A stretch of DNA of 64,000 nucleotides from Bugulina stolonifera (taxonomy: Eukaryota > Bryozoa > Gymnolaemata > Cheilostomatida > Bugulidae). The notes beneath the pieces are model-generated. The model had not been told where the DNA came from. It did no database searches and saw only the letters and a program-made list of their open reading frames with translations. Below, in pieces: positions 5,021 through 55,870 of the stretch. How positions within the stretch are numbered: position 1 is the stretch's first letter; each line of letters opens with the position of its first letter. The position numbers and the translations under genes are program-made. The stretch lies in the NCBI GenBank assembly GCA_935421135.1, contig OW285197.1:2479568-2543567 (forward strand). Reading direction: 5' to 3'.

Positions 5021-5219
5021 ACACCTTCCACAGTGGAGATCAGCAGAACATGTTGATACTGGTCTGATATCGAAAGGAGTGACCATGGACACTGCAATGC
5101 AGACCACGCATCAGTCCGCAACTCAGAAATCATTAAGTTACCCAAAACTCATGGTGGACAGTCTGACACAAAGTAGCAGTGGAACTCCGCATCTTTCCAG
5201 TCTACCACAAAAACACAAG
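5021..5219 (+). pseudogene. Gene Z: orphan cytoplasmic-tail exon of the receptor family
   Basis: The exon starts after an AG acceptor at 5019-5020. Its start (RHLPQWRSAEHVDTGLIS) aligns with the tail exon of gene A (RDIPKVRSAGHVYAGLMT), and so does its end. It could end at a GTAAAA donor at 5220 or read into the overlapping TAA at 5220-5222. No transmembrane exon is recognisable upstream, where a MITE and the composition break lie, and no final exon homologous to that of gene A is seen downstream before gene A begins. It is probably the 3' remnant of a further array member. Confidence 0.6.
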
Positions 5220-5222
5220 TAA

Positions 5223-6254
5223 AACTGAGTATGTTGTGTAAAAATTCCCATTTGCTAGAAATTGCTATTCATTATGCTAGTAGCAATGCTGTAATAAAAT
5301 GCTTATATCACTGTCATACTTCTATCCAATCTTATGTACATGAACATTTACATGACTATTGCAGGTCATTAAAAGATTGCTGTTCAAAAATGTGTCAACA
5401 GGTAAAACTGTCAAATGGAGTTATCAGTTGCTTGTATTAGCCAGTGAAAAACATAGAAGTTGTCAAAGGTCTAGTTATATTGACCACGTTATGCCTCTTT
5501 GAATAACTATGAGAATTTTACTACATGACTTGTATTATATACAGTAGCTTCATTGTGGCTTTGTTGGCAAAATAATTTCTATGACCTTTTGTCTTTGAGT
5601 AGCTGCAGTAACTTGGACTGTCTATCATTAAGACGTGCAGGCACCAGAAACAAGACAATTCTCTAACCTACAAATAAATAATATGGTTCAGGACAATTTC
5701 CACCATTGGTGGTTATATGGAGGAAAAAACTTGCAAGCTTAGGCTATCCATTTGTTATGTAAATTGTTTTGAGTGAGTTAAATTATTAGTTAGATAAGGT
5801 ACATGTAGATTAAGGCAAAAGCATGAATTTAGAAGAAGGAATATACATGTATTTAATGTGCTAGATAAATACATGTACACTACTGTAGCTCTAGTGAGCT
5901 GATACAAACTGAAAGTGTATTATCAGTGTGGTTGTAATTTAATAAATACTGCATGTATAAGATCAATAACATAGTAATGCATTTACCCCACAACTAAAAC
6001 TAAAATACAATAGACTCACTAAATACTCGAAGTTACAGTGCAAATGTTTTGGCTGGAGGAAAGAATTTATGCTATGTTTGCTATCCGATCAACAATGGTA
6101 CTACAATGTTTAATACTATTGTCTAAGGACTGCAGTTGGAGTGTAGTTTAGTTGTTTACTAGCCATATGCGCTTTTATTTAGACGTTGAGAGGCTTTAGA
6201 TGACATACTCAATTAGGTTACATAACAACTATCATCAATTAATAGGATGAGAAA
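5223..6254. other. Intergenic stretch between Z and A
   Basis: AT-rich sequence with scattered ACATGTA motifs. No exon with homology to the array genes, no RNA gene and no clear transposon end is seen. Confidence 0.6.
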
Positions 6255-9200
6255 ATGACTATACGGGATAGCGGCTCAGGTTTGTCCAATCTGGCCAAAA
6301 GTGTAGCAATAATTCTATATTTTCTCCTTCAAAAGTGAGTATGAACATGTAACGTACATGTCACTAGAACTGTGATAGCTTTGATGTCATGTTACATATA
6401 CATGTATGTTAGGATTAAGATTGTAAACAAATGTTTTCATCAAAAATCCAATCACTGCTGCAGAGTAGTACAAATCACTCAGTTTGACATTCTAAATAAT
6501 TGTAGCAACTACCCAGTTTGTTATGCAACGGAGCAGCAGTGACAAGTCATGAAATAACAAAATATGCTTCCACAAAGTTATAAAATCAAAATGCATACAG
6601 ACTTTGATTGAGACAGGGCCATGTTAGAGTAACAATACATTGAAATACTGGCATGGAAATACTGACATAGAAATACTGCCAATGTCATATTTAAAAGTTA
6701 AACCAGTTATAGTGTAAACCATCTTTCATAAACTATTTTGTGTTTCCTTTATCAACAAAGAAGTGCTGTAAATAGAAAAAAACATTATGCTTATGGCCGT
6801 AGGTTGGAAAAACAGCATACTCATGTTCTTTTAAAGTACTGAATTTTTCTGCAAAGCAAAAATTTCCAAATAAAGTCAGCAGCTATGCCAACCTATCATA
6901 CATTTGGTTTCATGGCAGATGTTCTTGGTAATTGTAGAAACTATCAAGTTTTGGCCCTCAAAGATCATACAGTTAGAGACATACAGACTATTTTACTTGC
7001 TAATGACACACTCAGAATTTCGTGGGATGTAGTTGAACCCAGACAGCCAAGAAAAAGATGGAATTTCACTCATGTCACACTACAACGCCCAGAAGCAATC
7101 AGAAGTGTACGATACCCTCTAAGAAGAGATATAGTGAGTTATCCTAAATACTGTAATTCTGTCCCATGTACTAACATACTCCATAGGGATATCAGTGTTT
7201 TGTTACATACATATATGTAGTAATGTACACTATAGACAATTATACATAAACATAGAAGTAGGACTGGCATAGCCATGGGAACTTAACAGGTCTTAATGCT
7301 GACTGGAGGTCATAATAGCCAATATTATTCAAATGAGCGTATCTTGGCTACCACTAAGATTACAAAGACAAACAACACATAAATCTTCATTAAATAAGAT
7401 AAGCAGTTTTCTTTGCAAATATTGAATTGTGAAACAGTAGTGGCTTAAATTTGCTAATTACAGTGTGAAGAAATCAGTTTGCTTCCTCTGCTTGAAGGTA
7501 AATGTTGGAAGCTTGAATCGCACATTCATTGTAGTTCATGTAAACTTAAATTTATTGAAGCAAGTTCTCTGATAGCAAGAACGAAGGCTTGCATTCCAAT
7601 TAACTGAGGCTGAGTTGATCTAGTTTTACTGTATACAACGTACAAGGTGCAAAGCTTTGCATATTAACCGCTGCTAAATAGATACATGCACGTATGGTGA
7701 TCTTGTTGCATTGAACTTATCCACCACTAGCAGAAACCAACAGTGGTTCTCATTTCTACTAGCTAGAGGAGCTGCACTCACGCCACTCTGGTTTTCCTAA
7801 CAGTAATCGTTTTTTTTATGCAGTAGAACTACATGTATTCTGGCTAAATACTAGTAAAACTTGTAGTCCAATGACTAGGCTATTATTCAACACAAAACCT
7901 GATTCACCAAAAGAAAACTGGCATCACATCAGCTAATATTTTATGCATGTTTTATTGGTTTCATTTTGGTCATTAAATTGCAATTACTGAAATGAATAAA
8001 TTATTGACGGTTAATAACTTGAAATATTTACAAAGTATCCAATCAACTAATTCCGTCAGTATTCATGACCTCTTGATTAATAATGAACTACATGTATCTG
8101 GATTTATTTCCACTAGCATTGAGCTAGAGCTGCTCTTTCTAATCTGAAATTTATTTCCATCAATATGATGGCAAATATACAATTGTTGAAAATATACATT
8201 TTATTATCAGTACAGTGTGGATTACGGTCTTGATGACAATGGCATGCCCAGAGGAGCAAAGTATGACGTGTTAATTCAACTAGTTGATGAAGATTTCACT
8301 GCAGTTTCTGATGAGGAGAGTGGTGCAGTCATCATACGTAAGAATATATAATTGCTTTAATATTCTTACATTTTGGTGGTTTAACTGCAAAGAGTGATGG
8401 CTATTGAAAGTTATATTTAGCAATGTGTCATCGAGATCTATTCATACAACTTTACTGTTTTATCTGTATTGGTCTATTATAATCATGTAAATTTTGCAAC
8501 TCAAAAACTACATTTACACATTTTATGCTAATTTTACCAGACATATAGAGTATAACTGTATAATAGTATACTCAGGGTCAAGGAGGTTGATATTTAATAT
8601 AGAGTAGGTAACCCTGTAAAATATTTTTCACTAGCTCCAAGAAAGCCTGTATCATTCTCTGCTACGTTAAGTTACCACAACCTCTCTAGGGATGGATACC
8701 CAAGATTTATAGAGTTCAATTATCATCTTCAAAGGAACTCACTCTACAGTGGTGTCAAGATAGAGTGTGGGAATAGAAATGCAAACGGAACATTAAGCAT
8801 CAGATTTAGAAAGGAAATTGACTTTACATATTCTAGTGAGTACATGCTAATAGAACAATACGGGATATTGATGCATAACACAAAATCCCAACATTCATGC
8901 CTTAAAGGTGTTTACTGGCAGTTAATTTTTCCTTAAACTAACTGACAATGTGCTTTTTATGAATTAGCACAAGATTTAGATTTAGGTCTCAACCTATGTG
9001 ATTACATCAAGTCACACTGAGCAGTTTTGAGCTTTCACATGTGTGTGTACCATTTTGAGTATTACTTGATAGATGTAAGGGCTCTGAACTTCCATCTGGG
9101 TATACTTGGTTTGACTCACAACTGAAGTGTTTTTTCATCCTAAATTAAAAACATGCAAATGTCTTTAGATTAATGCTTTTCTTCTTTGGGATCAGAAGTC

Positions 9201-12200
9201 GAAAAAATTGCTATTTTTTCGTTAACATGACTAACTTCCACCCGGTGCAGTCAACGGTAACTCCACCAAAGTTTATTAAACTGATTTAGATTGCGAAATT
9301 AAGCATAAGTTTCCGTACATCCAATCTCTATGGTGCCAAACACAAGAATTCTTCAAGTAGCTGCCTAAAAGCAGAAAAAACCAATCATGTCTCCTAGAGC
9401 TGGATATTATTATAGCCTGATATAGAACGGACAAAAGACTAGATCTGGGTCAATGGTTGGACTCGGACCCATGTTGTTGCCGCTAAATTGCGTCAATGCT
9501 GCAATACTAAAATGAGTGGTGCTAGACCACTCGGCCATCAACACCTGCATTATTATCTTTTAGTCTAATGTGTCATTATTGTGCCTGCAGACAACTCATA
9601 AACTTCAGAATTTTCAACTGAAAAGTTTATGGAATTCTAGCTATGTGTGAAAAATTGAAAGTATAATTAATAAATGTTACCTAATGTTGTTGTACTATGG
9701 TTATTATAGCTTATGTTAAAGTACTTATGGGGGACTGGTGTACTTGTTAGGGTAACTTGATGCATCTTAAGAACAATGCAGCATGGTCAAGTCATACACT
9801 ACGTGTAGAGCTGCTAAGTAGCAACTGAACGAACTCATTTACAGACACCGTGCACAAGTAGTTCTCAGATTTGGAGGGCTTCTAGCAGTGCAGGGGAAGT
9901 AGTAGAGCCAGGCCAAGATTCTTTAGTACAGATTGTGTCTAATCCGAAAATCTGAAAACTCTACCACTTCCGCTGCACTGTCAGGAGTCCGTGGACTACG
10001 AGCGCATGGTGTTCGAAAATGAGTTTCTAGGTAATAGTCATGTACCTGTACCTGTAAATATATAACGCCGGGTCTACATACCAATTCGATCTGTATATGA
10101 CAATATACGGATACATATATATATTGTAATGTTTGGGCTGTGTTACATACAAGTGCCGACATGGTACGGGTATAGGAAGTGCTTGGAGGTTGGTAGAGGA
10201 CAGCCAGGGTAACTTCCACACATTACATAAAAGAGTGAACAGTTAGTTAATGCTCTAGTATTGTTGATAATGATGTAGGCCGAGGCTGAGACTCGTGAAA
10301 GAGTCCAAGGTAGACGTAGGTCTGTAAGTTTATACTCCAAACGAGTGTAGAAAGAAGTAGTAGTAATCTAAGGAGTGTAGAAAGAGTTGCTTAAATGAGT
10401 ATGAAGATGAGCTCGAGCCGCTTAGGTCTAAGAAGACCTGTGGGTGGAGCTACGGGCCTGCAAGAGGAAGCCTCTAGGTTGAGTTAAGAGTTGTTGTTTT
10501 ATTCAAGCGCAATCAACAACTAATTTGATACAGAAAATGTGCTGGCTTTTATACTAAATACACTTCCTGAAAAACGTACGACAAGGTATTGGGCTGGTAC
10601 GATAAGATATCGGGCCGAAACTTACGCAACAACATGGAGTAGTTCCGCCCGACGTTGGCCACCAAAAGGGTCGTCCTTGCACAAAAAGTGCTTACAATAA
10701 TCTGATATGGATAATATATGGCCATGTTCTGAGACATCGGCCCAAAAATTATACAGGTAAAAGACTTAGAGAAACAATCAGGATAAATGGATGATTGCAC
10801 ACACATAGCATAGTTAAACTATACTTAGAACATGCAACAATCTGATTGGTCAATAATAGCAATACAAAGCGCACTATGCATAAGCAATTGATTTTAATAA
10901 TAGTAGAATAATGTCGACGCATGTATATATGGTAAGGTAATGTCAATGCATGTAATAGAGTAAATATGAGCACAATTTCAACGCATGTATGCACAAGATT
11001 ATAGTTCATGTCGTGGCAGGCTATGCTAATTCACCACAATATTATAATAATCATGTTGTGACATTAGTACTTTCCTACTTATCCTCTATTCAGGTAAAGA
11101 TGAGAATGTAGCCCTGGGCCGACCAACAGCCATGTTTACAACAAGAACAACTACTGGTGGGTTTTTGTTAAACTCCAGCTATGCAGTCGATGGCAAGATT
11201 TGGCTGAATGTCAACCATGCTCAGACAGATAATTTAATAATCCCAAAATGGTGGGTGGTCCAACTTGATCGGATTTTGGAAATCCAGAAAGTGATTTACT
11301 ACAACTATCAATCAAGGTGTGGCAAAACCTACTGCAGTGAGTACAGCAAAGATGCAAAATAATGTTATGAACTGCATACTGGTAACGTTTTCTTGGTGCA
11401 TATAACAGTTGGGTTGTCGTTGATGCATTTTCTGTTAAATGATCAATTGATTAAATGACTAAATCAGTTAAATTTAAAGACGCTGATAGCAGACAGCAGA
11501 TTAATGTTTCCCAAGATGTAGTACTTACTATATTAAACTATTCAGATATGCATTCATGTTAAAATTCAAGCTCATAAAAGACATAAAATAGTACAGCCAT
11601 GTGGTGGCAATTTGACCAAAACTACTTACAAGCAATTTTCTTGTTAAAATACGGTAGTACGGTACTACGGTACTACGGTACTACCGGTACTACGGTACTA
11701 CGGTACTACGGTACTATGGTACTACGGTACTACAGTACTGCGGTACTATGGTACAGCGGTACTACGGTTAGTACTACTCAGGATTGCAGGCGTGACTTGT
11801 GTATTTGTGGACCCAAGTTTTTCTGTTTATCAATAGCAATCAAAAACCCCTTCCTGCTAGATTTATATTCATGATTTGAAAGTTTTAAGCTAGCGCCCAG
11901 TAACAATCACATTTTTTTCTGAGATAATCCTGCTTCATCAAAAATTTGATCAGGAAGAAAGTTGTATTAGTATATTAGTAACATAGTTATTCTTTGATGA
12001 TATAACTGAACTAGAAGTAGTATATAATAGGTATCCCGGTTGTGTCTTTTGACTTCAGTCGCCTACAGGCTGGGCTCAAGAAAGTACATTACTTGTATCT
12101 GCTTTTTAACTGTGCAACCTCTTACTGTTTACTGCTAACAGTGAGGCTACAGACCCTCATCCCCTATCTCAGACCACAGACCTTGGCATAGTATTTAACT

Positions 12201-15200
12201 AGTACCAGAGTCCAACACTACCGGGTCTTACGCCAACTCTGAGTGCCAGCACCTGGTTCTATGCATGCAGGCCTGCTATAACCCCTCTTGCTTAGTCAGT
12301 CAGGTCTGAGTCCCTCTTTCTACTCTGACCTGAGCGTTTCAAAGTTGCACCTCAGCTACCCAACAGCTCACCACTGTAGTGTTAAAAGGGTAACATGCTA
12401 TAATTATGTGCATGTATGTTGGGCATCATAGGCAACATACGCACACCACATGCGCAATCATTTGGGCTCAAAAGCTGCTTCCATTTGAAAGGCAACCTCA
12501 CCTGAAGCCAAAGGTAGTGATGCATATCTTGGCAGAGTTGGGTCCAAGTCGATTTGCAAGTCAACAAGTCAAGTCATTTCTAGAATTTTGGAGGCAAGTC
12601 AAGTCAGTGCTGCCTTAAGTCAAGTCAGCCGTCATGCAAGTCACAAGTTAAGTGAAGTCAAAGTCAAGTCAAGTCGAACTGCAAGTCAAGTGGAAGGCAA
12701 CTTCAAAAAAGTTTACATTTTCAAAACATCACTTTTTTCTTTTAGCCTATGCCAAGGTGTGGCAGGGCATGAACATGTATGTTATGCAGTCATGGTAAAG
12801 AGCTAGTCTATATAAGTAGTATTATTGGCACTACGGTCGAGGCTGGTCATATAGTATTATATAATGTATATTGTAATGATAATACAGTGTTACATAGCAT
12901 ATAAACAGCGCATGGTACAGCACAGAGTGTGATCTGGCCAGTCCTGCAATTTAACTCTAGTAATCATTGCACAGTACATTGTATTCACTACTTACACCAC
13001 ACCTATGCTACACTTACACTACTTGCACTATGTGCATTTCTGTCTATGCATTGTGTAGTCTCACGTACATACAGCCTAGATATTGCCTGAGTTCCGTATC
13101 CTTATAGCTAACCTTGATATACTCTGAGTGCCGCTAGTAGCACTGATCTAGTAAAAATTATAAATAAGTAGGCAATTGAGACCTTGTTTCCATGTTGGCC
13201 AAACACTGTACAAAAGTTTTATTTGCCATATTGACTTGGCAAAACCTAAGTCAAAATCACAAGTCATTCATGTGTCTAAGTCAAGTCACATTGATGCGCA
13301 AGTCAATGTCAAGTCCAGTCAGCAAGTAGACAAGTTCAAGTCAAGTCGACTTGTGACTTGACTTGACTTGGCAAGTCGAGTCACATCTATGACTTGGACC
13401 CAGCTCTGCATCTTGGTGCTGGTGCTGGTGGCTTAAAGGAATTTTATGTGAAGCTGCAGACCATTTGAGACACTCAAACTTTTTCAATGAAAATCAGATT
13501 TAATATGTTAAAATCCACACAGACGATTTGTTTTCAAGAGTATTTTTATTCAGCTTAGTGCCTATAAGAGAAGTACAGTAATTTGTTATTATTGACCAGA
13601 TGTTACCTTGCCCATGCTAAGCACAGCATTCCAAGGGCGCAGTTGGTACATTCAACCTAGACAATAGTAGCGGGACAACAATAAGCGTACAATTGTTTCT
13701 TGTAGGTACTTTCTTACAGTCTTTCAAGATATTCTCTAGTAATAGCTCCGATAGCGAACCCTGCAAAAGTTCAACCAAGGTCAAAAAAAGATCTACTCGA
13801 TACCCAATGCCATATGAAATGGTCCTCGTTGAAACATTCAAACCTACATTTCTAGCGAGGTACATTGCTATTTGCGGTTTTCCTAGAGCCCGTGAATCAC
13901 TGACGCTAATAGAAGTTGAAGTTTTTGAAGCAGGTATGTACTAGATCACTCATAGCTTCAGAACAGTCGAGTTAGTAAATATAACTATTGTAGCTTGAGA
14001 CAAGCATTGGTCTTGGCTATTGGCTTTGCAAAGATGGCTCATTATTGTCACAGATCTATTAATTCACCTGTCCAAACTGCAAATTTAACTAACAGCTTTA
14101 TCGTTTTGCAGCTATTTTCATGGAATCCTGAGCAGAATAATATTATCGTCTGTGTTATAAGGTTTATATCACTGTACAGTTTAGTTTTGGCGTCATCTTC
14201 AAGACTAATTCCTTTTTTCTTGCCTTGAACACTAATATTATCAACTCTTCCAATGTCTTCCTCCTCTCTTTGACGTGCTGTAGTGGCCAGGCATAGACGA
14301 TAGACATGAAAGTAGTCTTCTCGCGCCACACTGCTATAACACTACAGTGATTTGAACTGTCACTATGTTTATCTGTACAGCGTATCTATGGTGTACAATG
14401 ACTGAATTGCATCTTGTATTTATATACTGTATCTTATTTATGGTACATGTAACTTGTATTTTACTATGATTGCATAACTGCCTTTTTATACTTTATACTT
14501 ATACTATACTGCCCATATCTGGGAAAACAATGTATTGGTTAATTTCTAAATTTTACAGGAGAGCAAAAACCGTGTTTGCTTTAAGCCAACAGGTATAAAT
14601 GCTTAAAAATACATGGTTCAAAATATCAGTGCGATCAGGAGAATGAGATCTGTCTAATGCTGCAAGAATTTTTTCGATTTATTTATTTTTAAAAGCATTA
14701 AACTTGATATATTGTTTTGTCAGTTATTTTTTATATGCTTCAGCAGAGGTAAATTGACTGGGAAAACAATGCATTGTCGTTGAATGTCCATTCAAAGATG
14801 AGCAGTTCTATTGAATAACTCAAAGTCTGTGGTTATGACTTGGCCTCTGTTATGGAATCAGGTTTTTATTGTTAAACTGCAATGTAATGCATTGTTTTGC
14901 CAGTTATTCTGTTGGAATTTAGTCAATACAGTGTTTTCTCAGTTAAACTATTGCAACATTTACCCAATACAGTGCTTCACATGTCTTAAAAACACTGTTT
15001 ACAATGTAAGTTTCAATTTAATCTTTTTTAGACATGAAACTACATATTATGAACATCTCAAAAATGCAAAAAAGTAAAAATCAAAAATTTTGGTGATACA
15101 TTGTTTTCTCAAATATGGGCAGCCCATTAGGTACAATTTTTTTTATATGATTTGAAGCAACTTTGGTAAAAGGCCGACCCTACTTCAAATGACAATTTTG

Positions 15201-17190
15201 TAATTTGAAGTTTTTCCCATAATATAGCTTTAAGCTTATCATTGATAATCCTAATCCTAATCCTAATCCTAATCCTAATCCTAGATTTGCAAAACAGATG
15301 CTAGCTATAATTAAAATACCAATTTCTGATTGATCAATACTCTCCGACTTGTCGAAGTAACCCAGCACTGTTGGGTTGCTCCGACCCCGTCTCCGACATT
15401 TGGGATCTCTAACACCGACACCGACTTTTGTGTTTACACTCCACCAACTTTGTCGGAGTTGAACAGAAAAGACGGAGTTGGTGTCGGAGTTGGTGTAATG
15501 TAAACACTGCTTCAGTTATCATTATAGCAAGCGGAGAATACTGTATTAACCGTTTCTAAGTCTGTTGCCTATCATAGCCAATGTCTCAGATTATACAATT
15601 TTTTACATGTAATATCTTTCACATGATTATAAGCCTTTTTCTCATGGCCGACCCTTTTTAGGTCGCCCTCGGGCACTATTCTACCACATTTTACCGGAAC
15701 TTTTACCAGAAGCTGATTTAGTATAAAAAGCAAGCACATTTTCTTATGCTAATCAGATGTTGATTTTGCTCCAATAAACAAACATCATTCTACAACTCAA
15801 TATTCAGAGTCCTACTCTTGCAGGCAGGCAGCTTCAGCTTTAGTCCCTTTGAACCGAGCTCGTCCTCATACTCGTTTAAGACAGTTTCAGCACTCTCTAT
15901 GAGTATTAATATGGACCTACCCCGATCTTTGAGTCTTCAATGAGCCTAAGCATCGGTCCTACATCTTTCCAACATTAACAAGAGCTACATAACTATTCCC
16001 TCTTTATGTAACTGTGGAAGTACAATTTGGTAGACTATTCCCAAGCACTTCCCACACTCGTGTCTACATTGGCACCAGTGTGACCAACTCATACAGCATT
16101 ACAATACTACAATGTTAAAAGTTAACCGTAATGGTACGTCAAAGGTGGCGACACAGCATATATGTTTGAGCAACTATGTACATGCATGTATGAAGCCACC
16201 ATTGGTGATTGTGTGGTCTACGAACTAATCTTTTGTTGCAGACACAGAGGCGTACCATTACGGTTAACTTTTAACATAAGCATCACGAGTGCTACTTTGT
16301 TATTAGTCTGTCCTTGCCCCGTCACATTGGTCATTCTGTCGATGTGGTCCATTATCACTTGATCATATAGATTGATTTACATGTAACTAATGGTTGTAGA
16401 GCAGCCAATAGAAAAGACTGAAATCAGAGAAATACAACTAGAAAACTTACTGCCTGGGACACCTATCGACTGTGATGTGCATGCTATTGCTACAATATCC
16501 GGTGACAGCATACTGTCCAAGCGTGAATCACTTGCTCAGAAAATTCTAACTGGTAAGTTGCGATCTAAACTTGTAAAGTAGCATGTTTGCAAATCCGAAA
16601 TTCATAGCTTAATTTAACCGCAAGGATATTGTCATGTCTATCAACCGTAACGGGTTTGAATGAGAGCTCTTACCCATCCTTGTTTTTATTCCCCTACTGA
16701 AGCCATAGGTTTTAGAGACATGCAGCTTATTAGAACAATCAAAAGTGTATCAATATTTAAACCATGAGCATTAACTGGACAGGAAACGTTATTATAACTC
16801 TACTGTAGCTTGTATCACCCTAAATGATATTGTCGACTAAATGTAAATATAATACATGTTCGTGTAATTGTACACGCACATGTAAATCTCTAATACTTGG
16901 TAAAGATAGTACTCACGTATTGCAAAAAGTATTTTTGTGTTTATGCTACTTTGTGACCTGGTTTTATGCCGCAAAGGAGCAGATAGACAGACATGAAACC
17001 TTTGCTTGTGAGTAGCTTGCGCTTACGTATTTGCTCCATTATTCTAGTGCCGTTGATTTTCTTGTATAATAATGAATATGATGAGTAGTTATCACCAATG
17101 ATACTCCAGATAATTGCACAGCATCTACTTTTTGTAACTTATGCGAACAATTTTGTTGTGTACCTGCACTTTGCATCGAGTAGTAGTAGT

Positions 17191-17222
<32 letters not shown>

Positions 17223-19522: not shown

Positions 19523-19589
<67 letters not shown>

Positions 19590-23635: not shown

Positions 23636-23794
23636 AGTGACTCAAGGTTTAGCCGGTGAAAGCCTACCAATATTGAGCAAAACATTAAATTAATTAATTA
23701 ATTAATTTAATTAATTCTAATGCATAAGTTTAAAATGATATGATAATTGAAAATTCGACAGTCAAATAGATTTATTATAGTTTGAATAAAGACA

Positions 23795-24090: not shown

Positions 24091-24099
24091 AAGTAACAA

Positions 24100-25800: not shown

Positions 25801-25906
25801 GTCATCTACACTGTGCATTTAATATAAGTTTATAATCAGAGGTATTCAATATTTGTACACATCACAATATTGTGTTAGTAACATACAAATGTGTCTTTAT
25901 TACCAT

Positions 25907-26500: not shown

Positions 26501-26692
26501 TACATGTATATAGTAGACAACTAATGTGTAATGCAAGATATACATATATAGTTAATGTCATACAGTCGGGAGGCTAGATCAGAGTTATGCATAACAATTA
26601 AAGTATAGTCATTGTATACAACAATACAGCTCAACGTATAAATATGTATGAGAGGTGAGTCAAAGTGGAGAGCAGATTCTCTAGTAGGAAAA

Positions 26693-26784
26693 ATGAAATC
26701 AATACCAGCATGCTGTCTCGTACATCAAATAATGATTATAATCATTATTTGATGTACGAGACAGCATGCTGGTATTGATTTCAT
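26693..26784. repeat. 92-bp perfect palindrome
   Basis: 46-bp arms meet with no spacer between 26738 and 26739 and are exact reverse complements; complementarity stops one base outside. No coding content. Confidence 0.98.
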
Positions 26785-43851: not shown

Positions 43852-44169
43852 TGCGCTTTCATTACGATTGGAGCATTCAGATTAACAAAGTGGATACAGC
43901 AAATGCAAAGTACATTCTGTGACGTTAATCAGCACTACAATTTTTTTTTCAATATTGCTCTACTGCTTGGTACTACATGAATTATATTTGCATGTAGTAC
44001 ATTATACATTGTACATTATATCTGGAACACTAAAGTACATGTACATGTCTACAATGTAAATACATTGCATGATCATATTTTGTTAATATGGTAATGTGGA
44101 ATAAATTTATAGGTAATAGAAGTTTTATTATTGCAAATGATCAAATGTGTAGAGCTCTACATGAATAAA

Positions 44170-46098
44170 GTTGAAGTATTACTATTTATGAAACAAAACT
44201 GACAGCAGCCGCTTATTTATATACTTTACACTGGGTATATAAAACATGTAAAAGTGGGCTTAAGAAGGGCATAAAACGAATTTAATTTAACGAACCCCAC
44301 CAAAATCTGATTTTAATTTAACAACCACAAATGTACAGGGTTGTTGTAAAACGTGGTAAAGTACACATGTAAGGCAGAATTCCAATTTTAAACCGATCTT
44401 CTGGCTCATAAGTAGTATATTTACCACTTTTTGTTGCCTTATAGTTGAAAATAGAATTGCACTTGCAGTAATCCTATCTTACAGTTACAGATGAGATGGG
44501 TATTGTATAGCTGATCTTATGATAGACAACAGATCAAAATTAGTCCTGTAGTGGGATTCGAACTCACTGCCATTGGATTGACAGTTGAGTACTCCACCTA
44601 CAGTATTATGCTATCCGAAAACTAACTATCATACTTGCAATCAATCGCACTAATACTTTACTACATGTAGTAGTGTTGCTGCAGCTAATGAAAACAACAG
44701 TGAATATAAATAGCTAACTATAGTTTAGTGATACAAATTATTTTTTAACGAGTTCGATCCACTCATTAAAACGTTAAGTTATGATCACGCGACTGAAACC
44801 CAGTGTGCAGTACCACTTACATATTTATAGCAGCATAACCTGACAGTATTAGTAAATAACTAATACTGAATGTGAAAGCTAAATTATTATGTTGCTGCTT
44901 TATGGTCCATGAATATACATGTATAAGCTATACTAACTCTATACACGATGTATCCTATAGCATAAACATTTGCAGAACTTTAATCACTTTGTCCTGTTTT
45001 ATGGCTTATTAATTATAACTTATTATCATTTTTTCCCATGCTCGCACCAGGAGATAGACTTGCATATTAATAATTTTTGCCCTCAGTTGACCGATGTGAC
45101 CCGCTTTACTTAATATGTCAAGCCTAGACATCATACCACATTTAGCTAATTACTCATGTTAATCTTTTTTCATTCACCAAGCACCACCTTGTGATATGAT
45201 CTCTTTTGCAGTGTGAACTTCATAATTTATGTCACCTTTAACGGAACACACCTAAATTTGTAATTATGCTTTTTTGCCGGTTTTTGGGCACCAAATGGTC
45301 CAATCACAACATCAAGCTATATAGTATACATGTATAAAACTGAGCGAAAAACTTTGTTTCTTACCATTCGTTCACTGAGGAACAAATACAACCACCATTT
45401 GTATACGTATCTCTTGGACCAAGGTCTACTTTGTCAAAAGGCAAGTTATATTATATTAATTTAGCATAGCAATTTAGTACTTATACTTTTTCTTAGTTAG
45501 GTAATTGTTAGTAGGGACTCCTCTCTTATTTTTGTGCAAATGTTTAGAAATAAAATTTTGTTGCAAACTTACTAGCTCATGGTTTAAAATATAGTTATTA
45601 CAAATGTGTTAGAAACTTAAACAGCTCTTCTTTAAATAGAAATTTTCATCGGGATACTAGACCCCACTAAAACTTCCAAAACAATTGTAAACAGCCTAGT
45701 TATGTCTTGACATGAGTATTGTGTCAGAGATCATGGTATCCTGCAATTGTTGGTAGCGGAGACTGACTTCATTTATTAAGTATTACAACACTGTTAGTAG
45801 CTGCAAGTAAGCCATGTAACAAATTTATTCATTGCTCTTGAAAATACTGTACACACTTTCTCATAGAACGAATACTAGCTGCCGCTCACTAACTATCAAG
45901 TCAAGGTATAGTCTGATCAAGATACATGTAGAATTTAACAGTACATCTAGACGCACCGATGATAAGAATAGAAGTGAAGCTTATCATTCCTTGCGCTCCA
46001 GGTCTCCTACAACAATCCTATTGGTTGAACTCTTGCTGCCATATTCTCCAGCCGATACCATTTTAGTTTTACCCAAGTTATGAAAAAATTTATTGTAG
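44170..46098. other. B-C intergenic region
   Basis: Beyond the gene B poly(A) signals. AT-rich; one tRNA-like sequence at 44.53-44.62 kb. No signal peptide or first FN3-like exon for gene C is recognised, so gene C appears to have lost its 5' part. GATAAGAATAGAAGTGAAGC at about 45960 recurs in variant form at 47925. Confidence 0.5.
44538..44622 (-). repeat. tRNA-like sequence (Asp-GTC-like)
   Basis: On the minus strand there is a convincing T-arm (GTGAGTTCGAATCCCAC) and a CTGTCAA anticodon-type loop. The arms do not fold into a standard full cloverleaf, so a tRNA-derived repeat or pseudogene is more likely. Confidence 0.35.
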
Positions 46099-47624
46099 GT
46101 ACTTATCTCAAGTTTTTCAAGATATGCTCCAGTAAAACATTCAACTTATTGCCTTGTGATACCACAAAGAGATCTTCTTTGAGTCCAGATCCACTTGAAA
46201 TGGCCATCGTTCAACGGTTCACACCCACATTTCTAGCAAATTAAGTTACTATTTGTGGTTCTGCTGGATATTATCAACCACTGGCAATATTAGAAGTTGA
46301 AGTTTTTACACCAAGTAGGTACTGATGAACTCGAGATTTTGGTGAACAATGCTTTATTTGAAAATATTTTACCATCTTTTGCAAGTGCAATGACCCATTT
46401 CCAATAATGTTAAAGGTGCATGCAGTCAACTTTTTCAAAATTACTGCAGTGCATGCACACCTGTGCATTGCAGTATTCTTCTTATGCAAGCGGCTGAACA
46501 CTGTGTCAGTATAAATCAATATCTTGTATTATAATGCACATTTTATATCAATTATGGTTCACAAAAAACTAACATTTCACACTCTCATACAATATATGCT
46601 AAGGGATCTATAGTTTTCTGGTAGTATTTTTTCGCTGGCATAATTGGTAACTCTATTATACTGTTACATACACAGAGCAGTTGACAGAAAACAAACCAGC
46701 TGTGAGTACACTTGGCTCTTGGTGGGAGATTTTTAACAAAGCCATCCATGTCCATCAATTCCACCAGCTTCGACCGGAAGTTATTTGGTTACAAAGTTTT
46801 GAATGAGTTACGGTTAGAACTTCGATAAATACGCACGCTTTTATATTTCAGACTGCTCTAGGAGCCTCTTAGCATAGGCCTCACTCTAGAGCTGGAGTCA
46901 GAACCACTAGGGTAGTTAGTTACATGTTTCCGGTACCTAATCACAGATACATAAGGACAGAACATGCACAGACCTGTTAGTTGTTGTAAACAAAGCACTG
47001 CTCATCTTAAACTCAGACCCCACTCAGTGTATGTAATATGAGGAGTGCTGATATAAAAGTGTTTTTACGATGACTAGACAGTTTATGTGGTTTTACCTTA
47101 TCACAACAAGTAAGATGATGATCAGCTAATTCTGATTGTAGAACAGCCACTTATACAGACTACTGTCAGGCCAATACAGACGGAAGACTTGCTACCGGGC
47201 AGTTTTATAGACTGCGATGTTTCAGCTATTTAGACAATAAACAGTCAATCAATTCAGTCATCAAAACATTCACTCACTCAGAAAATTCTGTCACGTAAGC
47301 TTCTCTCTTTATTACTGTAAACATTAATATACTTGTACAACCTGACTGTTCTTTTATACCTCCGCGGCTATAGTCGAATAATGACAATTCCTTTCCTTCT
47401 AAAATTGCTCCCATCATTAAAGGTCTTTTACTCTAAAAAAAACAATTCTCCTCATGCAGCTTATTTCTTCCTCTAAAGTCACCTCTCTACTCCTTTAAAA
47501 TCACTTCCTCTTGTTCTTTGAAATTACATGTACTTATTTTCTTGTATAATGTATTTTTAGCAAGGAATTTATTTTTGATCAGTCAGAGACTTGTTTCAAA
47601 CCCAGGAAAATACCAGTCCCTGAC

Positions 47625-47705
47625 TGGGGTTTGAACCCGGGCCTCTACGGCACCTAATCGCCTAGCACGGTGAACAGAAAATGCTACCACTACACCAGCT
47701 AAGCA
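47625..47705 (-). repeat. tRNA-derived SINE-like sequence
   Basis: On the minus strand: TTAGCTGGTGTAGTGGTAGC (A-box region) and GGGTTCAAACCCCAG (B-box), followed by the same GTCAGGGA flank as at 21.59 kb. Confidence 0.55.
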
Positions 47706-48659
47706 ACCTATAAAAGGAAGCTTCACTGGTGAACTGCAGTAGACATGCTCTGAATGAACTGCACACGAGGGCACCCCTTTTCTTTTCCCCTCTGAAACCA
47801 CTTTTTTCAATAAAAAGTTGTTCTACAAGGACTATAATAGCCCGGACATGTAACCCGGTCATTTCATCAGGTTTACTTTGTCAAGTTCAGGTGCAAGTTG
47901 CACAGAATAGAGTTTTCAATTAGTGATAAGAACAGAAGTGAAGCGTTTCTACTCTTGTCTTCCAACAATAATTATTACTAGAAATTATTATTGGCGATCT
48001 TGGCATACATCTGCTCACTAAGCACCAGCTTTCCACCTGTTAACTACCCGCTAGACGTTCGCTAACCATCTGCTAGATGCCCGCTAACCACTTGTCAACC
48101 ACCCGCTAATCAACTACCAAAGTGCTGTAAATAAACACCATAATTTCCAAAGTAATCTGTAAAACGAGCAGCTTACCCATGGGATCAGTGAAGTTTTTTC
48201 CACATGGTTGCGACTTCCTAGTCAAATAGGTCTTACAAAAGTTTCATCATTTCATCATCTCACTTTCTATCTACATCACAAGTTTTACATTTCCATATCG
48301 ACTGAACTCTGAGTCATACAATGTATCTGAGCAAAATCTGAGTACATTCTGAGTACAAACCGGATACAGAGTGACAACATTATAATTAGTGCTCTTTAGT
48401 TGTACCATACTGACAGCTAGAGCGAGTTAGACTCCACACAGCCTTCATGTTAGATTCATTTGAACTGATAATAAATATTTTCGAAGGCAGCCCCACTACA
48501 GGGGCTTCCGACACACTCATTCTACATAATATAATTCACTTGGGTTCATAACATAAATTCATGATGGAATCGTGTAGGAGATCTGAAAGGATGATGACTC
48601 AAACAACTAAATCGAGAAAAGAAAATGGGACACAGTTGCACTGTACATTTGTATATGTT

Positions 48660-48860
48660 GGGATCTGGAGTTACATTGTTTTTGCAGACAATCGCTATTG
48701 TCAATTTTGAGACACGGTGTTTGTGACCCATAAACCCATAAACCAATAAAGACCAAATTTTTACCCAAATTTATTTTAGCATCATATGACGGCATTCTAA
48801 CACCAGCTACGCAAAAAATATATTGTGGAAAAAATGGAGTTGCAGTTGTTTTGCAGAATT
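48660..48860 (+). repeat. Dispersed repeat R, plus copy
   Basis: GAGTTACATTGTTTTTGCAG start and AATAAAGACC block as in the 24.1 and 25.6 kb copies. Between the exon 7-like and exon 8-like remains of gene C. Confidence 0.55.
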
Positions 48861-49721
48861 CAGCAGCAGTATCTAAGTATCTGTAAAATCAATCTAATGT
48901 TACTTTATGCAATTTTAGCCCCTCCACAGAATATGGTGTATAATTATACAGAAGATGGCTCTCACTTGATATTATTTGACTTGGAAACCTCTGCCTTGGA
49001 CATATATGAGTACAGAGATTGTCTTCCTCCTAGATGGGAATTTGTATGCTCTAAATAATGTGAGATTAAATACCTGTTAATTCCATACACCCTTTGTGCT
49101 TAGTCTGCAACGCAATTCACACCGCAAGATTTGTTCGCTGTGCTCGTCAAATATATTATTTATTCTTTTCAAACCTTTTTGAAGCTTTTAAATTTATCTG
49201 GTCCAGGGAACTGATTGTGATGGAATGTATGAATCAATAGTGCTATACTTAGCTGCTATTTACAATGGTACATTATTTGTAGCTTGTTAATAATAAATAA
49301 TAATTTATTATGTTACTATTTTCCATACAAAACGATACAAATAGTCGCTGAGATTCTCATATCATGGGATGATTACTTTCTGGTCAAAGATATATTCTCG
49401 AAACATGGATTTCAACCACACTGCCTATTGGAAATGTCAAATCATTTTAAAATGCTACGTTTTCATTTGTGGCAGGTGAGAGAATAATAATATACAATGT
49501 ACACGTACATGTACATGTACATGTACATACAGTGCAAATATTACTCCAAAAATATCGCAAAATGCTAACTAAATAAGTATCTGCTGGTAACTTGTTAATT
49601 TCAAAAATTTGATTGTTTGCGGTAAACAAAGTTTACAAGTAAGGTGACTTGGCCGCAGGTTACGAAACCTAGTACGGTTGAGTGGTTATTATAATATCAT
49701 TTCAATTCATGAAAAGTAAGT

Positions 49722-49812
49722 AATGTAGTATAGCTAGTAGTAGTATAGCTAGTAGTAGCATAGCTAGTAGTAGTATAGCTAGTAGTAGTATAGCTAGTAG
49801 TAGTATAGCTAG
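49722..49812. repeat. 15-bp minisatellite
   Basis: About six tandem TAGTAGTATAGCTAG units, in gene C between the exon 9-like remnant and the transmembrane exon. Confidence 0.9.
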
Positions 49813-50522
49813 TTTTGGCTGTGATTCTTTCTCTGCATGCTGACACAATGCCACAGCAAGACTCACTACGTGTAACTGTGTTTGCTAGAGCTGAAAAATA
49901 CCAAACTGAGCATAATATATTATGGAAATACACGTTATATACATGTGCACATAATATTATATTATGTAGTATTCTTAGGTAGTATGATAATTACATGTGT
50001 AATATCATTGGCTACTTAATTCACCATTATATACAATCATGTAATACACATGTTTGTGTAGCTGTTAATAGACATTTCAAAGAAAACCATTGTACACAGA
50101 GTTTTCCTTCAGGGGAAACTCGAGTCACTCCTGGCGCTCAATTATTAATTTCAGCAGCCTCATATGAGCCAGTTTCCAGTTTTGCAATGGCCCACCCTTA
50201 AGAATGGTAAAACCGTATCCTCCATATTTAAATTTTGCAGAAGCGACACCACTGTATCTAACCACTGGCCAGTATGTGTTGGGAATTTCATCACTGTTCA
50301 TGTTTAGCTTGGCCATAACTTTCATTATCCGAGAAAAAGTCCGTCAGAAACAGTTGGAAGAATTTTTAAAACAAACACATAGGTTCGATTTGTTCTTTCT
50401 ATTTTATATTTCCATGTACATGTATATCTGATGCTATTCACTCAATTTAGTTTACAGCAACTGCATGTTGTGTAATACATACATGTAATGTATAAACACA
50501 ATCATGTACATGTGTATATTAT

Positions 50523-51468
50523 TGTGGTAAATCAGGCTCCGTGGTAATAGTCTCCCTTGGCTAACCACGCATTGACATAGCTCTCATATAATATACATAT
50601 CCTATACGTGCATGGACATTACCTTATTATCTACTATAATTGTAATCAATTACTGTATTCATAATGTGCTTTATATTGTTATTATTAGCCAATCAGCCTG
50701 TCACATTTCTTACATGGTTCAATTATACTATGTGTGCAACTACCTATTATCCTGATTGCTTTCTTTAGTTCTTTTACCTGTATACTTTTGGGGCCGATGT
50801 GGGCCATACTTATATAAAATCCATACTGGTATATTGTAAGCATTTTTTGTACAAGGCTGACCCTTTTGGTGGCCGACGTTGGGCCGAACTAGGCCATGTT
50901 GTTGCATAAGTTTCTGCACGATATCTTATCGTACCTTTTTCCGGAAGTAGTTTATGTGTAAAAGCCAGCACATTTGTTGTATCAAATCAGTTGTCGATTG
51001 CGCTCTAATAAAGCAACATCTCTTAACTCAACCTAGAGTCTTACTCTTGCAGGCCGGCAGCCCCACCCACAGGTCTTCTTAGACTTAAGCAGCCGAGCTC
51101 ATCATCATACATGTACTTGTTTAAGCACTCTTCATACACTCCTTATGAGTTCTACATCATTGGACTTTGGCCGATCCTAGATTCTTCATGAATCTAGCAT
51201 CGAGTCTACGTCCTTAGATCAATTCTAGTTCTTTCTACACTCCTTTGGAGTATAAACTTACAGACCTACGTTGACCCTGGACTCTTCCATGAGTCTCAGC
51301 CTCGGCCTACGTCATTATCAACAATCATAGAGCTTAACCAACTGTTCACTTCTTATGAAATGTGCTGTAGAAGTTAACTTGGCAGCCCACTAACAACTAC
51401 CAAGCACTTCCCGTACCCGTGCTATAATACCGGCACTCGTAAGTAAACCTACACAGCAAAACATTGCA
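50523..51468 (+). mobile_element. Solo LTR, family L2, plus orientation
   Basis: Begins TGTGGTAAATCAGG and ends ACATTGCA. Aligned throughout with 10125-11038. Promoter-like TTATATAAAA near 50810 and AATAAAGC near 51007 are present. No clear target duplication. In the intron after the gene C transmembrane exon. Confidence 0.7.
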
Positions 51469-51552
51469 GTATTATTATATTGAGGTCGTTGTTATAGACT
51501 AGTGGTGTATTCTTTGGCTGAGACTGTGTCAGTGACCAAGAGAATGTAATAT

Positions 51553-52084
51553 ATTCACTACTTTTCCATGCTTCGTATTTTCCTTCGAAGGGAGTTGTTT
51601 TACCCTTCGAAGCTTCATTCCAGTCCAATTCCATGCTTTGTATTTTGTTCAACTGTTTTGTGGCAAACGCATTTAAGTTTTCCCGCCTATACCATCATAG
51701 TACAATAACCTCGTGAGTTAAAAATAGCTATGCGTTGTCTAATGTGAAATCAACAGCAACAAGGAGCGCACAGCCAAACTGACGTCATAACCATAATGTA
51801 GTTATCAACAAGCAGTTATTCAAGCGTGAACACTATTGCGCCAGCCACAGATAGTGTACTACTAACTAGTGCTTGTACATTGGCTTCGAAGGATGGCGCT
51901 TCCATCCTACGAAGCAATAAAAATCCCTACGTATTTTCGGAAATACGAAGTCTCACGGTCGAAGGAGCTTGCTCCTACGAAGGTCAGGAAATACCTATTT
52001 TGTGCCAATTCCGTCCTTCGTATTTTAAATACGAAGCTAAATACGAAGCTACATGTAAATACGGAGCATGGAAAAGTAGTGAAT
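51553..52084. mobile_element. 532-bp foldback/MITE element
   Basis: TTCACTACTTTTCCATGCTT on the left is inverted at the right end (AAGTAGTGAAT), with the arm covering 28 bp and one mismatch. Interior has TTCGAAGG/CCTTCGAA and AAATACGAAG motifs in both orientations. Confidence 0.7.
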
Positions 52085-52840
52085 GTATGTATCATGGACA
52101 CATCAGCTAGAAGTACAGTGCTAGGCTTCGTACATTCTCTGCATATAATCTACATGTATGTGTATATTATACAAGACCTCTGTGTACCTTACATATTTCA
52201 CAAAACTTTGTTATTTTGCAACCAGGTTGCTACATGTGCATGCTAGAGAATGAACATGAAGGAGAAAAACAAAATTAAATACAATGTATTCATGAAATTT
52301 ATGTATTTTCAAATTAGTGATCCTGCAGGCGGCTATTTTTATGATGAAGCTCTGCTACAAGTCAGTGGAGTAGAGTACATGGACTACTCTACAACAAATT
52401 ACTCTATTGGCAATGCGCAATACACCCCAACGATAAGAGATGGAGTTCTGCCAAGAGAGAGAGTACGCCTCTATTTACTCATTTTCAAATTCACAGGTAG
52501 CTAAATCAAAGGACAACATTTATATTCATTCAGTAATTAGGGTTTGTTCATGATTCTTTCATGCCAGCTGCAATGCGAAATCCCCGTCGTAGCTCCATGA
52601 AATACATCAAATGATTATTATAACAATTTAAATGACACATTATATTTTGTAGAGATGAAAAAGCAAGTAAAGAAGTCACATCAATCAATAATAGGATTAC
52701 ATCACAGGTCCCGGGCTCTGTGGTACTCTCAGCTCAAGGGAACACTAAGGATAGTACCATACCAGAACCTTCTCTGTTGGGCTTACATGATTCTGTCAAA
52801 CCACACAAGAAGACAAAGACTAAAGTAAGGAAGAATCCTA

Positions 52841-52915
52841 ATTGACGTGACGTGACGTGACGTGGAGTGACGTGGAGTGACGTGGAGTGACGTGGAGTGA
52901 CGTGGAGTGACGTGT
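52841..52915. repeat. GTGACGTGGA minisatellite overlapping the gene C stop
   Basis: Tandem GACGT and GTGACGTGGA units begin within the last codon and TGA of gene C. Confidence 0.9.
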
Positions 52916-52919
52916 CATA

Positions 52920-54110
52920 AGCTGTAGCTGGCAAAATTAACTCTTATCAGCGTGCTTCCTCACATCTGAAATTTTACGTAATAATGTGGTGCTAAATGAT
53001 CTGTGGGTATGCAGATACTTTCTGCAGCCATATTCCAATGTTATCACCCATCTTAATGATGAGCTTAAATATTTCATTCAGTTTAGCACAATTATCTATA
53101 AAACACATTATCTCTGTCTCACTTTACAATAGTGCCAGTCCCCAGTTATTATTTCAATCTATATTAGTAGAGTAAAAGCAAGCGTTTTTAAACCCAGCAA
53201 TTAGGGTGGCATGACTGCTTTCAGCAGATTAATCCATCCTTTTGGTTTCATTCGCTGACTTTTTATAAGCATCTGTTTTCTTGCACAGAGCACCTACAAG
53301 TATATGCATATTATATCATTGCGATATTAGTGTGAGTGATTCACTGACTGAGTTTACACTCTTCAGCACTAAGTTGGGCACAACGAATGTTACTTTGCAG
53401 CTTCTATTTGTATACATTTAGGTGTTATGTGTACGATTGGTTTAACCTGGCAATGTGTGCAAGTAATGGTGTTCTGTGGGTGTGTATGACGTTGTGCTAA
53501 TAGACCCAAATGTACATGAAAATCATACATGTAGATGCGCATGTACAGGCACAGTGATTTTTGATCTTCCAGCCTTACACAATTAATTTAAGGTATAGGT
53601 ACTATGTTGAATGAGGTTACTCAAGTTCCCAAAAATAGAAACACGCTTCCCTAATGCCTTGATAGCTAAACTAGAGAGACGTCCTTCCTAAACTCCTTCA
53701 TTCACAACTACTTTCTAATGCAACATGTGCTTACCGGTTTGTAACTGTCTTGCCTGACCCACCTAATGTAACTTTGCAAGCAACATAACTCATTATACAC
53801 TGTTAGTAGTTCTATCTATTATATAAACTTTCTTCTCCATCCTGAAGTTGTCTCAACATATGAGGTGGATACTCAGCGAATGCATTTCAATGGCAACTAG
53901 GTTGGTCTCTGTAGCCACACAATGACTAACGAAAGGAATGTATACAATGTTTGTTGTCTGTTTAACAATGGAACAGCTGCAGTTTAAGCTATTGTTAAAG
54001 TTCTGTAGCATAGAGACAACTTCACTACTAACCTTGTTCATGTTTATTGAGACACTGAGAGACTTAAGCTGATAAACTTGAGCGACATCTAGATAATCAG
54101 CTCACAAGAT
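52920..54110. other. C-D intergenic region
   Basis: AT-rich sequence with no homologous exon, RNA gene or repeat end that can be supported. Confidence 0.5.
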
Positions 54111-54116
54111 GGTAGA

Positions 54117-55057
54117 ATGACAGTCAGGAATAGTAGTAGAGGCTTGTCCCATCTGGCAAGGAGTGTAACATTAGTTCTGTGTTTTCTCCTTAAAAAGTGA
54201 GTATGAAAATATACTTGCCATTGCTACTGTGAAAAATTTGATGCAAAAAATATATTAGCAAAAAAGTTTTGAACAAACTTTCTATTCTGAAATATGAATT
54301 CAACAAGAACTGTTTCAGTGTTAGTGTACAGCATTCAACATACAGTAAATGATGTTTTAGTGTCTATGTACTTGGCAGACGCAATGACCAGTCATGAAAA
54401 GAGAAATATTTCAGCAAAAATTATAATAAGCCTAAATACACACTAACTGTGAATAAGTTAGGTTTGTGTTAGTTGTCTTATTCTTGAACAATTTGTTAAT
54501 CTAGAAAATTTCTAAGTCGTTCACTGAAGATATACTTTGAAGGATAAACACTGCTATTATGTTATATTGCAATATTAATAATGATGATGAGGTATCGGGC
54601 AAAGAGTGACATTCAAGTGACCTATCTGTCGTAAATCATCTTTGTCCTATTTTTCTAACAAAGAAGTAGGTTTAACAAGCTTTTTCTTATGGCCATATTC
54701 ATGTAGATATGAGAACCTTGTACATTTTTCCTCCTAAGCATTCAACTTTGCTCGCAAACCAATATATCTTTATTTGATAAAACAAGCAGTCATTGTGCCA
54801 ACGGATCTTCCATAACTCATTTGGTCTCATCACAACTATATTATTGTTACTTTGGTTTTAGAAACTATCAAGTTTTGGCACTCAGAGATTATACAGTTAG
54901 AAATGTTCAGACTAGTTTACTTCATAATGACACAGTCAGGATTTCATGGAATGTAGCAGAGCCCAGACAGCCAAGAAGTAGGTGGGAGGTAACACATGTC
55001 ACGTTACAAAGCATAAATTTGACTAGCAGCGTACGATACATTATCAAAAGAGACCTG
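54117..55057 (+). CDS. Gene D: first two exons of another array receptor (3' part outside the window)
   Basis: Exon 1 is 54117-54196 (80 nt) and exon 2 is 54862-55057 (196 nt), the same lengths and phases as in gene A. Exon 1 encodes a signal peptide close to that of A (MTVRNSSRGLSHLARS, then TLVLCFLL). Exon 2 begins NYQVLALRDYTVRNVQTSLL, nearly matching A, and forms the first half of the FN3-like domain (RISWNVAEPRQPRSRWEVTHV). The donor CTG|GTAAG at 55058 is good. Intron 2 then runs at least 8.9 kb to the window edge and is filled with transposons. No lesion is seen in the visible part. Confidence 0.8.
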
Positions 55058-55823: not shown

Positions 55824-55870
55824 TGTAGTGTTTGTAATAGCTTTGTAGCTAGTAGCTTTATAGCACTAAA
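55824..55870 (+). repeat. 5' LTR, internally deleted
   Basis: Identical to the first 40 nt and the last 7 nt of the 3' LTR. It lacks 87 nt between two CACTAAA copies. Confidence 0.9.

Follow-up and report, generated by a model that had tools for sequence, protein, structure and literature searches.

Vertebrate paired receptors of the natural killer (NK) type come as linked relatives, some with activating tails and others with inhibitory ones, the activating members often using adaptors, and the Alr genes of Hydractinia are likewise clustered and specify ectodomains of the immunoglobulin (Ig) superfamily. In the available portion of one source (PMC12065747), candidate allorecognition genes of Hydractinia are reported to bear immunoreceptor tyrosine-based activation or inhibition motifs (ITAM/ITIM), the fuhc receptor family of Botryllus (the fester family and FcoR) combines ITIM and hemITAM motifs with Ig/Sushi ectodomains, and it is argued that the two animals arrived at ITAM/ITIM signalling by convergence, their ectodomains being unrelated. 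The bryozoan literature that we found, in the portions available, names no allorecognition gene beyond 'weak similarities' to Alr1 in a Bugula neritina draft, and holds nothing on an F5/8C-FN3 receptor family of Bugulina, most subscription papers and bioRxiv preprints being outside its coverage. Here we describe such a family in Bugulina stolonifera, a colonial cheilostome bryozoan (PMC10213821, available portion), part of which lies in a 64,000-nucleotide stretch of chromosome 11 (C11:2479568-2543567 of assembly tzBugStol2.1, which has 234,951,659 bases in 27 contigs), referred to below as the window.

A preliminary description had read the window as five plus-strand units, Z, A, B, C and D, with a common exon plan. 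This receptor array is partly confirmed, being real and in need of corrections: the gene models of A and B are complete, with 12 and 13 exons, respectively, and GT-AG at every junction, C is a pseudogene, only a tail exon of Z lies within the window, and D exceeds it. The receptor predicted from an intact gene comprises a signal peptide, three to four FN3-like domains, an F-type-lectin-like (F5/8C) domain most likely situated in the second of these, a transmembrane helix and a tyrosine-containing tail. As read from the genomic sequence, the exon plan, the F5/8C domain, the predicted transmembrane helix, constraint, duplication and decay, and the presence of two tail kinds that follow clade are shown. 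We regard it as moderately probable that the chromosome 11 family consists of single-pass recognition receptors of the paired type, both activating and inhibitory, that undergo birth-and-death renewal.

Like Hydractinia Alr, whose candidate genes are reported to bear ITAM/ITIM motifs (PMC12065747, available portion), the family is clustered and consists of predicted receptors in a colonial animal; it resembles Botryllus fuhc in its colonial host and its proposed activating/inhibitory logic. In contrast to Alr and to the Ig/Sushi ectodomains of fuhc, no Ig or Sushi family was detected in A or B (Pfam, E <=1), and the predicted ectodomain is unlike those of the Hydractinia and Botryllus receptors. 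With the vertebrate NK-type receptors the family shares a linkage of related genes whose tails, as predicted for Bugulina, are either activating or inhibitory, but the ITAM-like motif sits in the Bugulina receptor itself. Discoidin-domain and Eph receptors also place a jelly-roll domain outside (in Eph together with FN3 domains) and tyrosine signalling inside; however, Pfam detected no kinase family in A or B, and a receptor kinase reading was rejected on that ground.

Gene structure and ectodomain

The exon borders of A and B were placed by hand, and the spliced frames are open up to the stop codon. Exons are numbered from E1 in each unit. Across E2-E9 the phases of A and B are equal in 8 of 8 exons; the lengths are equal in four of the eight and differ by whole codons in the other four. 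Compared with A, B has one additional domain ahead of the membrane (E10-E11). The signal peptides of A, B and D were judged by eye.

Pfam scans of A and B returned F5/8C families alone, under both cut-offs, together with one chance-level match (E 0.08). A profile of nine F5/8C members matched F-type lectins in the PDB with E 2.5e-10, the match running from position 2 to position 154 of a 155-position profile, and the domain, as predicted, is an F-type-lectin-like F5/8C domain over its whole length. The fucose motif of F-type lectins, Hx(24-26)RxDx4(R/K), occurs in none of the nine F5/8C sequences, and the shorter RxDx4(R/K) in two of them; a fucose-binding lectin was accordingly rejected. The Bugulina proteins thus share an F5/8C sequence match with eel fucolectin, FBP32 and Sm-hPAF but differ from these lectins in lacking that motif and in being putative membrane receptors. 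In a large public protein set, the only match to B was an apparently bacterial many-domain F5/8C protein, covering 13% of B.

The remaining extracellular domains appear to be FN3-like, a reading that is weakly supported. Against a reference set of five FN3 sequences, the profiles of domain 1, domain 2 (E4+E7) and domain 3 score higher than all 100 of their column shuffles, which the F5/8C profile does not do; the match probabilities are 40, 9 and 12% over 76, 24 and 20 aligned columns, respectively. Four of the five PDB profile matches of domain 1 are FN3-type chains, all weak (E 0.24-1.9). When the exons are considered one at a time, the first half of FN3 is matched by E2 and the second half by E3, E7 and E9, with no shuffle as good in 60 (narrowly for E9); E8 alone is not significant (6 of 60 as good). 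Comparisons among the exons are unconvincing: E4 and E8 are in register, yet 4 of 60 shuffles are as good, and the figures for E4 against E2 and E7 against E9 are 3 and 6 of 60.

A nested layout, in which E4 and E7 together make up a single FN3-like domain with the F5/8C exons inserted in it, is weakly supported. The F5/8C exon pair has phase 1 at both borders, and the order E4, E5, E6, E7 is found in 11 of the 15 loci read (A, B, P38, P37, P29, P32, P236, C2, P23, P328 and P329), E7 being weak in P29, P328 and P329 and carrying a stop in P23. As for the other four, the place of E7 was unfetched in D and P40, P239 has no E7 in the fetched stretch, and in Z E6 was not found, nor was E4 in the stretch fetched. 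No form uninterrupted by F5/8C was seen among the 15 loci. Two units (3280k and 3291k) with no E5-E6 match at first were considered as lacking F5/8C; both were found to carry E5 and E6. Of the FN3 and F5/8C module set proposed earlier, the F5/8C part is upheld by the PDB profile and the FN3 part survives as weak profile similarity with no Pfam FN3 call; the layout now favoured is one in which F5/8C is probably nested.

Transmembrane segment and cytoplasmic tails

Transmembrane exons were identified in A, B, P37, P38 and D, and candidates in the P29/P32 and P329 classes. In the A tail, all five tyrosines fit YxxPhi (shuffle P 0.0002). This tail contains the pair YSMI-x9-YDTI, the D tail (E12 only) YSTL-x9-YDSI and the P236 tail (E11-E12) YYSL-x9-YDVI, with shuffle P values for a form with spacing 6-12 of 0.011, 0.003 and 0.020, respectively, which are not independent because the genes are homologous. 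Yxx[IL]-x9-YxxI is present in all three open A-type E12 exons read (A, D and P236); pseudogene C has no tyrosine remaining at the motif site. The B-type tails read SEYSQI in B and P38 and SAYSEI in P37, that is, SxYSxI in 3 of 3, and fit the ITIM consensus, [SIVL]xYxx[ILV]. YDVP is found in B and YDEP in P37, neither of them in P38. The predicted tails are shown to fall into two kinds by clade, an ITAM-like A-type and a B-type with the ITIM consensus, which sharpens the earlier remark that tails differ between copies.

Duplication and decay of the family

Searches of the B. stolonifera genome (one reference haplotype) gave 64 matches with B and 69 with A as the query. Merged through a distance and order rule, they define 122 exon loci in 30 units; these counts are lower bounds, and one-exon units may be fragments. 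Chromosome 11 carries 23 of the 30 units between 2.228 and 4.079 Mb, 14 on the plus and 9 on the minus strand, with at least four exons seen in 15; the others lie on C2, C4 and C5 (one each) and C9 (four). Unit C is not among the loci in the tables of these searches. A tree of 14 members, built from E4-E6, contains the groups A/P23/P40/P236/D/P239, B/P38/P37, P29/P32, P328/P329 and C2, with P37, C2 and P239 flagged as long branches and three forks open. Sequence searches of Pfam and the PDB revealed no known single-copy adhesion gene as a clear ortholog, and the gene itself exists in multiple copies.

Several members are close copies. Identity is 95.1% over 13,235 columns between P29 and P32 and 96-98% between P23 and P40, which lie in inverted orientation at a distance of 1.75 Mb, and the unit order -,+,+,+ at 2.91-2.98 Mb is repeated at 3.26-3.31 Mb (four units); B and P38 are 74-85% alike across colinear pieces. 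For the 5' 2.75 kb of A, the 40 candidates scored out of 514 include, besides A itself and short dispersed repeats (<=90%), nothing above 86%. Part of the duplication looks recent from these alignments, and its pattern is that of single units or one four-unit block. A giant inverted duplication or whole-arm haplotig near 3.20 Mb, prompted by B/P38 and P23/P40, was rejected because A showed no close mirror copy in the genome searches and the unit map is not symmetric. The close copies could also represent residual haplotypic duplication in the assembly, so that the true family would be smaller than counted. The P23/P40 identity in inverted places and that of P29/P32 agree with such an origin, as does the genome note, which states that curation took out four haplotypic duplications and that phasing of the assembly is incomplete (PMC10213821, available portion). 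Nevertheless, we find this rather unlikely: it is able to affect near-identical pairs only, and neither the 5' region of A nor the B/P38 pair reaches that level of similarity.

Decay is seen within the window. Unit C, which is without E1-E5, has in-frame stops in E6, E7 and E9 and a frame break in E8, and is a pseudogene as judged from its reading frames. Exons E5, E7, E8 and E9 of Z were located upstream of the window (C11:2466567-2472791); E4 was not found in the fetched stretch, and Z may be decayed because E6, E10 and E12 were not found. D extends past the window to C11:2566289 with E3, E4, E5, E6, E8, E9, a transmembrane exon and E12, stop-free in all exon pieces read; E7 and E11 were not seen downstream of the window, and E7 may fall in an unfetched stretch. 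The earlier claim that these single-pass receptors, with their tyrosine-motif tails, form a family in which copies arise and decay is borne out by pseudogene C and by the close copies (95% over 13.2 kb; 96-98%).

Selective constraint

Ratios of nonsynonymous to synonymous change (dN/dS) were calculated by the Nei-Gojobori method (NG86) for nine comparisons with partial exon sets, dS in A-type pairs reaching 2.4 in single exons. They are 0.19 for P23/P40, 0.23 for P29/P32, 0.24 for A/P236, 0.25 for P236/P23, 0.27 for P236/D, 0.29 for A/P23, 0.40 for A/D, 0.45 for the A/P236 tail and 0.48 for B/P38. This range of 0.19-0.48 indicates that the exons are constrained, and purifying selection, as estimated from these alignments, dominates in the nine comparisons. 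Single exons vary more widely (B/P38 E2 1.87, B/P38 E10 0.84, A/P236 E3 0.74). In domain 1 of B/P38 (E2-E3), which was chosen after looking and with no correction, nonsynonymous change is higher than in the rest (p 1.5e-6) and synonymous change is ordinary (p 0.74); the Nd/Sd ratio is also higher (p 0.003, with rounded counts). However, nonsynonymous change does not significantly exceed synonymous change within domain 1 (p 0.86) or E2 alone (p 0.27), so relaxed constraint would suffice, and positive selection is supported neither by this domain nor by the overall dN/dS range. In A-type pairs, domain 1 is not regularly the part that evolves fastest.

Proposed function

If these genes encode paired receptors, the ectodomain would bind a surface ligand, either glycan or protein, and the tail would be phosphorylated by Src-type kinases. 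A-type tails (Yxx[IL]-x9-YxxI) would then recruit a tandem-SH2 kinase, leading to activation, and B-type tails (SxYSxI, with YDVP or YDEP in two of three) a phosphatase of the SHP type and adaptors of the Crk type, the SH2 partners for which such motifs are known, leading to restraint. On this view the cluster would supply activating receptors together with inhibitory counterparts, and birth and death would renew the set. Elsewhere in the genome, the minus strand of C7:8851900-8864675 has three exon matches to SH2, making up two SH2 domains, next to three exon matches to tyrosine phosphatases, which fit a predicted tandem-SH2 phosphatase of the SHP type. Further pairs of SH2 exons lie at C3:13825498-13840596.

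A number of observations weigh against paired receptors of this design. The gene models of A and B derive from genomic sequence only, and P236 and D were read in part. The strict ITAM has the form Yxx[LI]x(6-8)Yxx[LI], and the A-type spacing of 9 lies outside it, the looser spacing of 6-12 being present in 3 of 3 open A-type tails read. Considered one at a time, the ITIM matches are not unusual against shuffles (P 0.06-0.11 each), YxxPhi is also a sorting signal for AP-2, and the two-tail scheme draws on the A and B clades and not on P29/P32 or P328/P329. As regards the ectodomain, Pfam gave no FN3 match at E <=10 in any of seven separately scanned pieces, no FN3 chain was found for domains 2 and 3 among PDB profiles, E4 alone is not significant against FN3 (50 of 60 shuffles as good), and none of the three pairwise comparisons of the domains is significant (11, 5 and 13 of 60 as good).

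The closest contender, which we hold to be a real possibility at somewhat below even chance, is that the genes encode pattern-recognition receptors, antimicrobial or symbiont-sensing, whose lectin-like domain binds microbial glycans and whose copy number tracks microbes, not allies. The F-type-lectin-like fold, the dispersed and uneven copy set with its several clades, and the two closest pairs, P23/P40 and P29/P32, in neither of which amino-acid change outruns synonymous change, all speak for such receptors; against them, the fucose motif is absent from all nine F5/8C sequences, so sugar binding is putative.

Allorecognition receptors, with polymorphic surface proteins of other colonies as ligands and with A- and B-type signals deciding between fusion and rejection, are unlikely at present, although such a role may be considered a live hypothesis. 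The host is colonial, colony fusion and larval kin recognition are recorded for bryozoans (PMC11686985, available portion), and the Hydractinia and Botryllus candidates bear ITAM/ITIM-type motifs on unrelated ectodomains (PMC12065747, available portion). The raised nonsynonymous change in domain 1 of B/P38 would also suit this role, but its failure to exceed synonymous change significantly and the absence of a consistently fast domain 1 in A-type pairs speak against it. The inference of an allorecognition or immune role in the preliminary description draws no support from the present data, in which purifying selection prevails. Endocytic or adhesion receptors, in which the YxxPhi tyrosines serve AP-2 sorting in adhesion or uptake, are quite unlikely. 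In their favour, the A tail fits YxxPhi throughout, and adhesion proteins often contain FN3 and F5/8C domains; against them, five signals, an x9 pairing that three genes keep and the YDVP/YDEP of two B-type tails would be more than a single sorting signal requires.

Features of the window

Table 1. Exons and fragments of the receptor units, in window coordinates
Feature	Position	Strand	Evidence
Z tail exon, only part of Z within window	5021..5219	+	tblastn 38% to A E11, E 8e-9
A E1, signal-peptide-like	6255..6334	+	spliced model, GT donor, phase 0; D E1 58% identical; judged by eye
A E2, FN3-like domain 1, first half	6938..7133	+	spliced model; FN3 profile above 60/60 shuffles
A E3, FN3-like domain 1, second half	8211..8337	+	spliced model; shuffles as good 0/60
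A E4, proposed FN3-like domain 2, first half	8635..8835	+	spliced model
A E5, F5/8C (F-type-lectin-like), first half	11094..11336	+	spliced model, Pfam, PDB profile
A E6, F5/8C, second half	13706..13933	+	spliced model, PDB profile
A E7, FN3-like domain 2, second half	16400..16552	+	spliced model; FN3 second half, shuffles as good 0/60
A E8, FN3-like domain 3, first half	20340..20488	+	spliced model; E8 alone vs FN3, shuffles as good 6/60
A E9, FN3-like domain 3, second half	20789..20918	+	spliced model; shuffles as good 0/60, narrowly
A E10, transmembrane segment, then basic stop-transfer residues	22105..22225	+	hydropathy 2.72
A E11, cytoplasmic tail (YAGL, YPRL)	22912..23124	+	spliced model, motif scan
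A E12, tail with EYSMIPEPYQKVGLYDTI (YxxI-x9-YxxI), stop codon	23452..23635	+	spliced model, motif scan
B E1, signal-peptide-like	27786..27847	+	spliced model; judged by eye
B E2, FN3-like 1, first half	30255..30450	+	spliced model
B E3, FN3-like 1, second half	36187..36310	+	spliced model
B E4, proposed FN3-like 2, first half	36920..37111	+	spliced model
B E5, F5/8C, first half	37882..38100	+	spliced model, Pfam, F-type lectin sequence match
B E6, F5/8C, second half	38253..38480	+	spliced model
B E7, FN3-like 2, second half	39765..39911	+	spliced model
B E8, FN3-like 3, first half	40262..40410	+	spliced model
B E9, FN3-like 3, second half	40937..41066	+	spliced model
B E10, extra membrane-proximal domain, first part; fourth FN3-like unit by eye	41207..41289	+	spliced model; no Pfam match
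B E11, extra domain, second part	42250..42508	+	spliced model; conserved in P38, P37
B E12, transmembrane segment	43181..43256	+	hydropathy 2.55
B E13, tail with SEYSQIYDVP (ITIM consensus + YDVP), stop codon	43599..43851	+	spliced model, motif scan
C pseudogene fragments, A-type (E6 46098, E7 47141, E8 48921, E9 49364, E10 50241, E12 52651)	46098..52845	+	stops, frame break, tail tyrosines lost
D E1, signal-peptide-like	54117..54196	+	58% to A E1
D E2	54862..55057	+	66% to A E2

Repeats and mobile elements occupy parts of the introns and spacers. An intron of unit A contains a tandem repeat of about 2.5 kb and period 9 (window ~17100-19600), strongly G-rich on the plus strand and with several frames open, and the stretches at 10143-10912 and 50626-51446 are repeats forming an inverted pair of ~78-83% similarity. 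A short near-perfect inverted repeat lies between A and B (26659-27069), where the adjoining 26796-27069 aligns to part of the P38 locus (90% over 274 columns). A long intron of unit B has remnants of a hAT-type transposase on the minus strand (31927-34531; hAT dimerisation region, DUF4371), and a Gypsy-type retrotransposon with a gag-like zinc knuckle, reverse transcriptase, RNase H and integrase sits at 55870-59841 in intron 2 of D, which begins at 55058 and leaves the window. An open frame of 219 amino acids at 1995-2654 (plus strand) is similar to a motif of protein-primed DNA polymerase B but has no Pfam match. Upstream of the window, C11:2330618-2333000 is a young dispersed repeat with 39 further copies at 98-100% over ~2.4 kb among the 40 candidates scored out of 4122.

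Implications

Standard annotation may well miss this family, because its F5/8C exons fall under the Pfam cut-offs and FN3 is not called. If the nested layout is correct, it would offer a clean example of exon shuffling, a lectin-like domain having entered an FN3 domain by way of a phase-1 intron. There is a small chance that the locus is a bryozoan complex of histocompatibility type, in which case bryozoans would be a third colonial lineage, after cnidarians and tunicates (Ig-type), with paired ITAM-like and ITIM signalling on an ectodomain of its own that sets an F-type-lectin-like domain into FN3. Should the paired-receptor reading hold, this bryozoan gene cluster, with its two tail kinds and a different ectodomain, would be an independent case of the convergence argued for Hydractinia and Botryllus, and the family would provide genes at known places for fusion tests.

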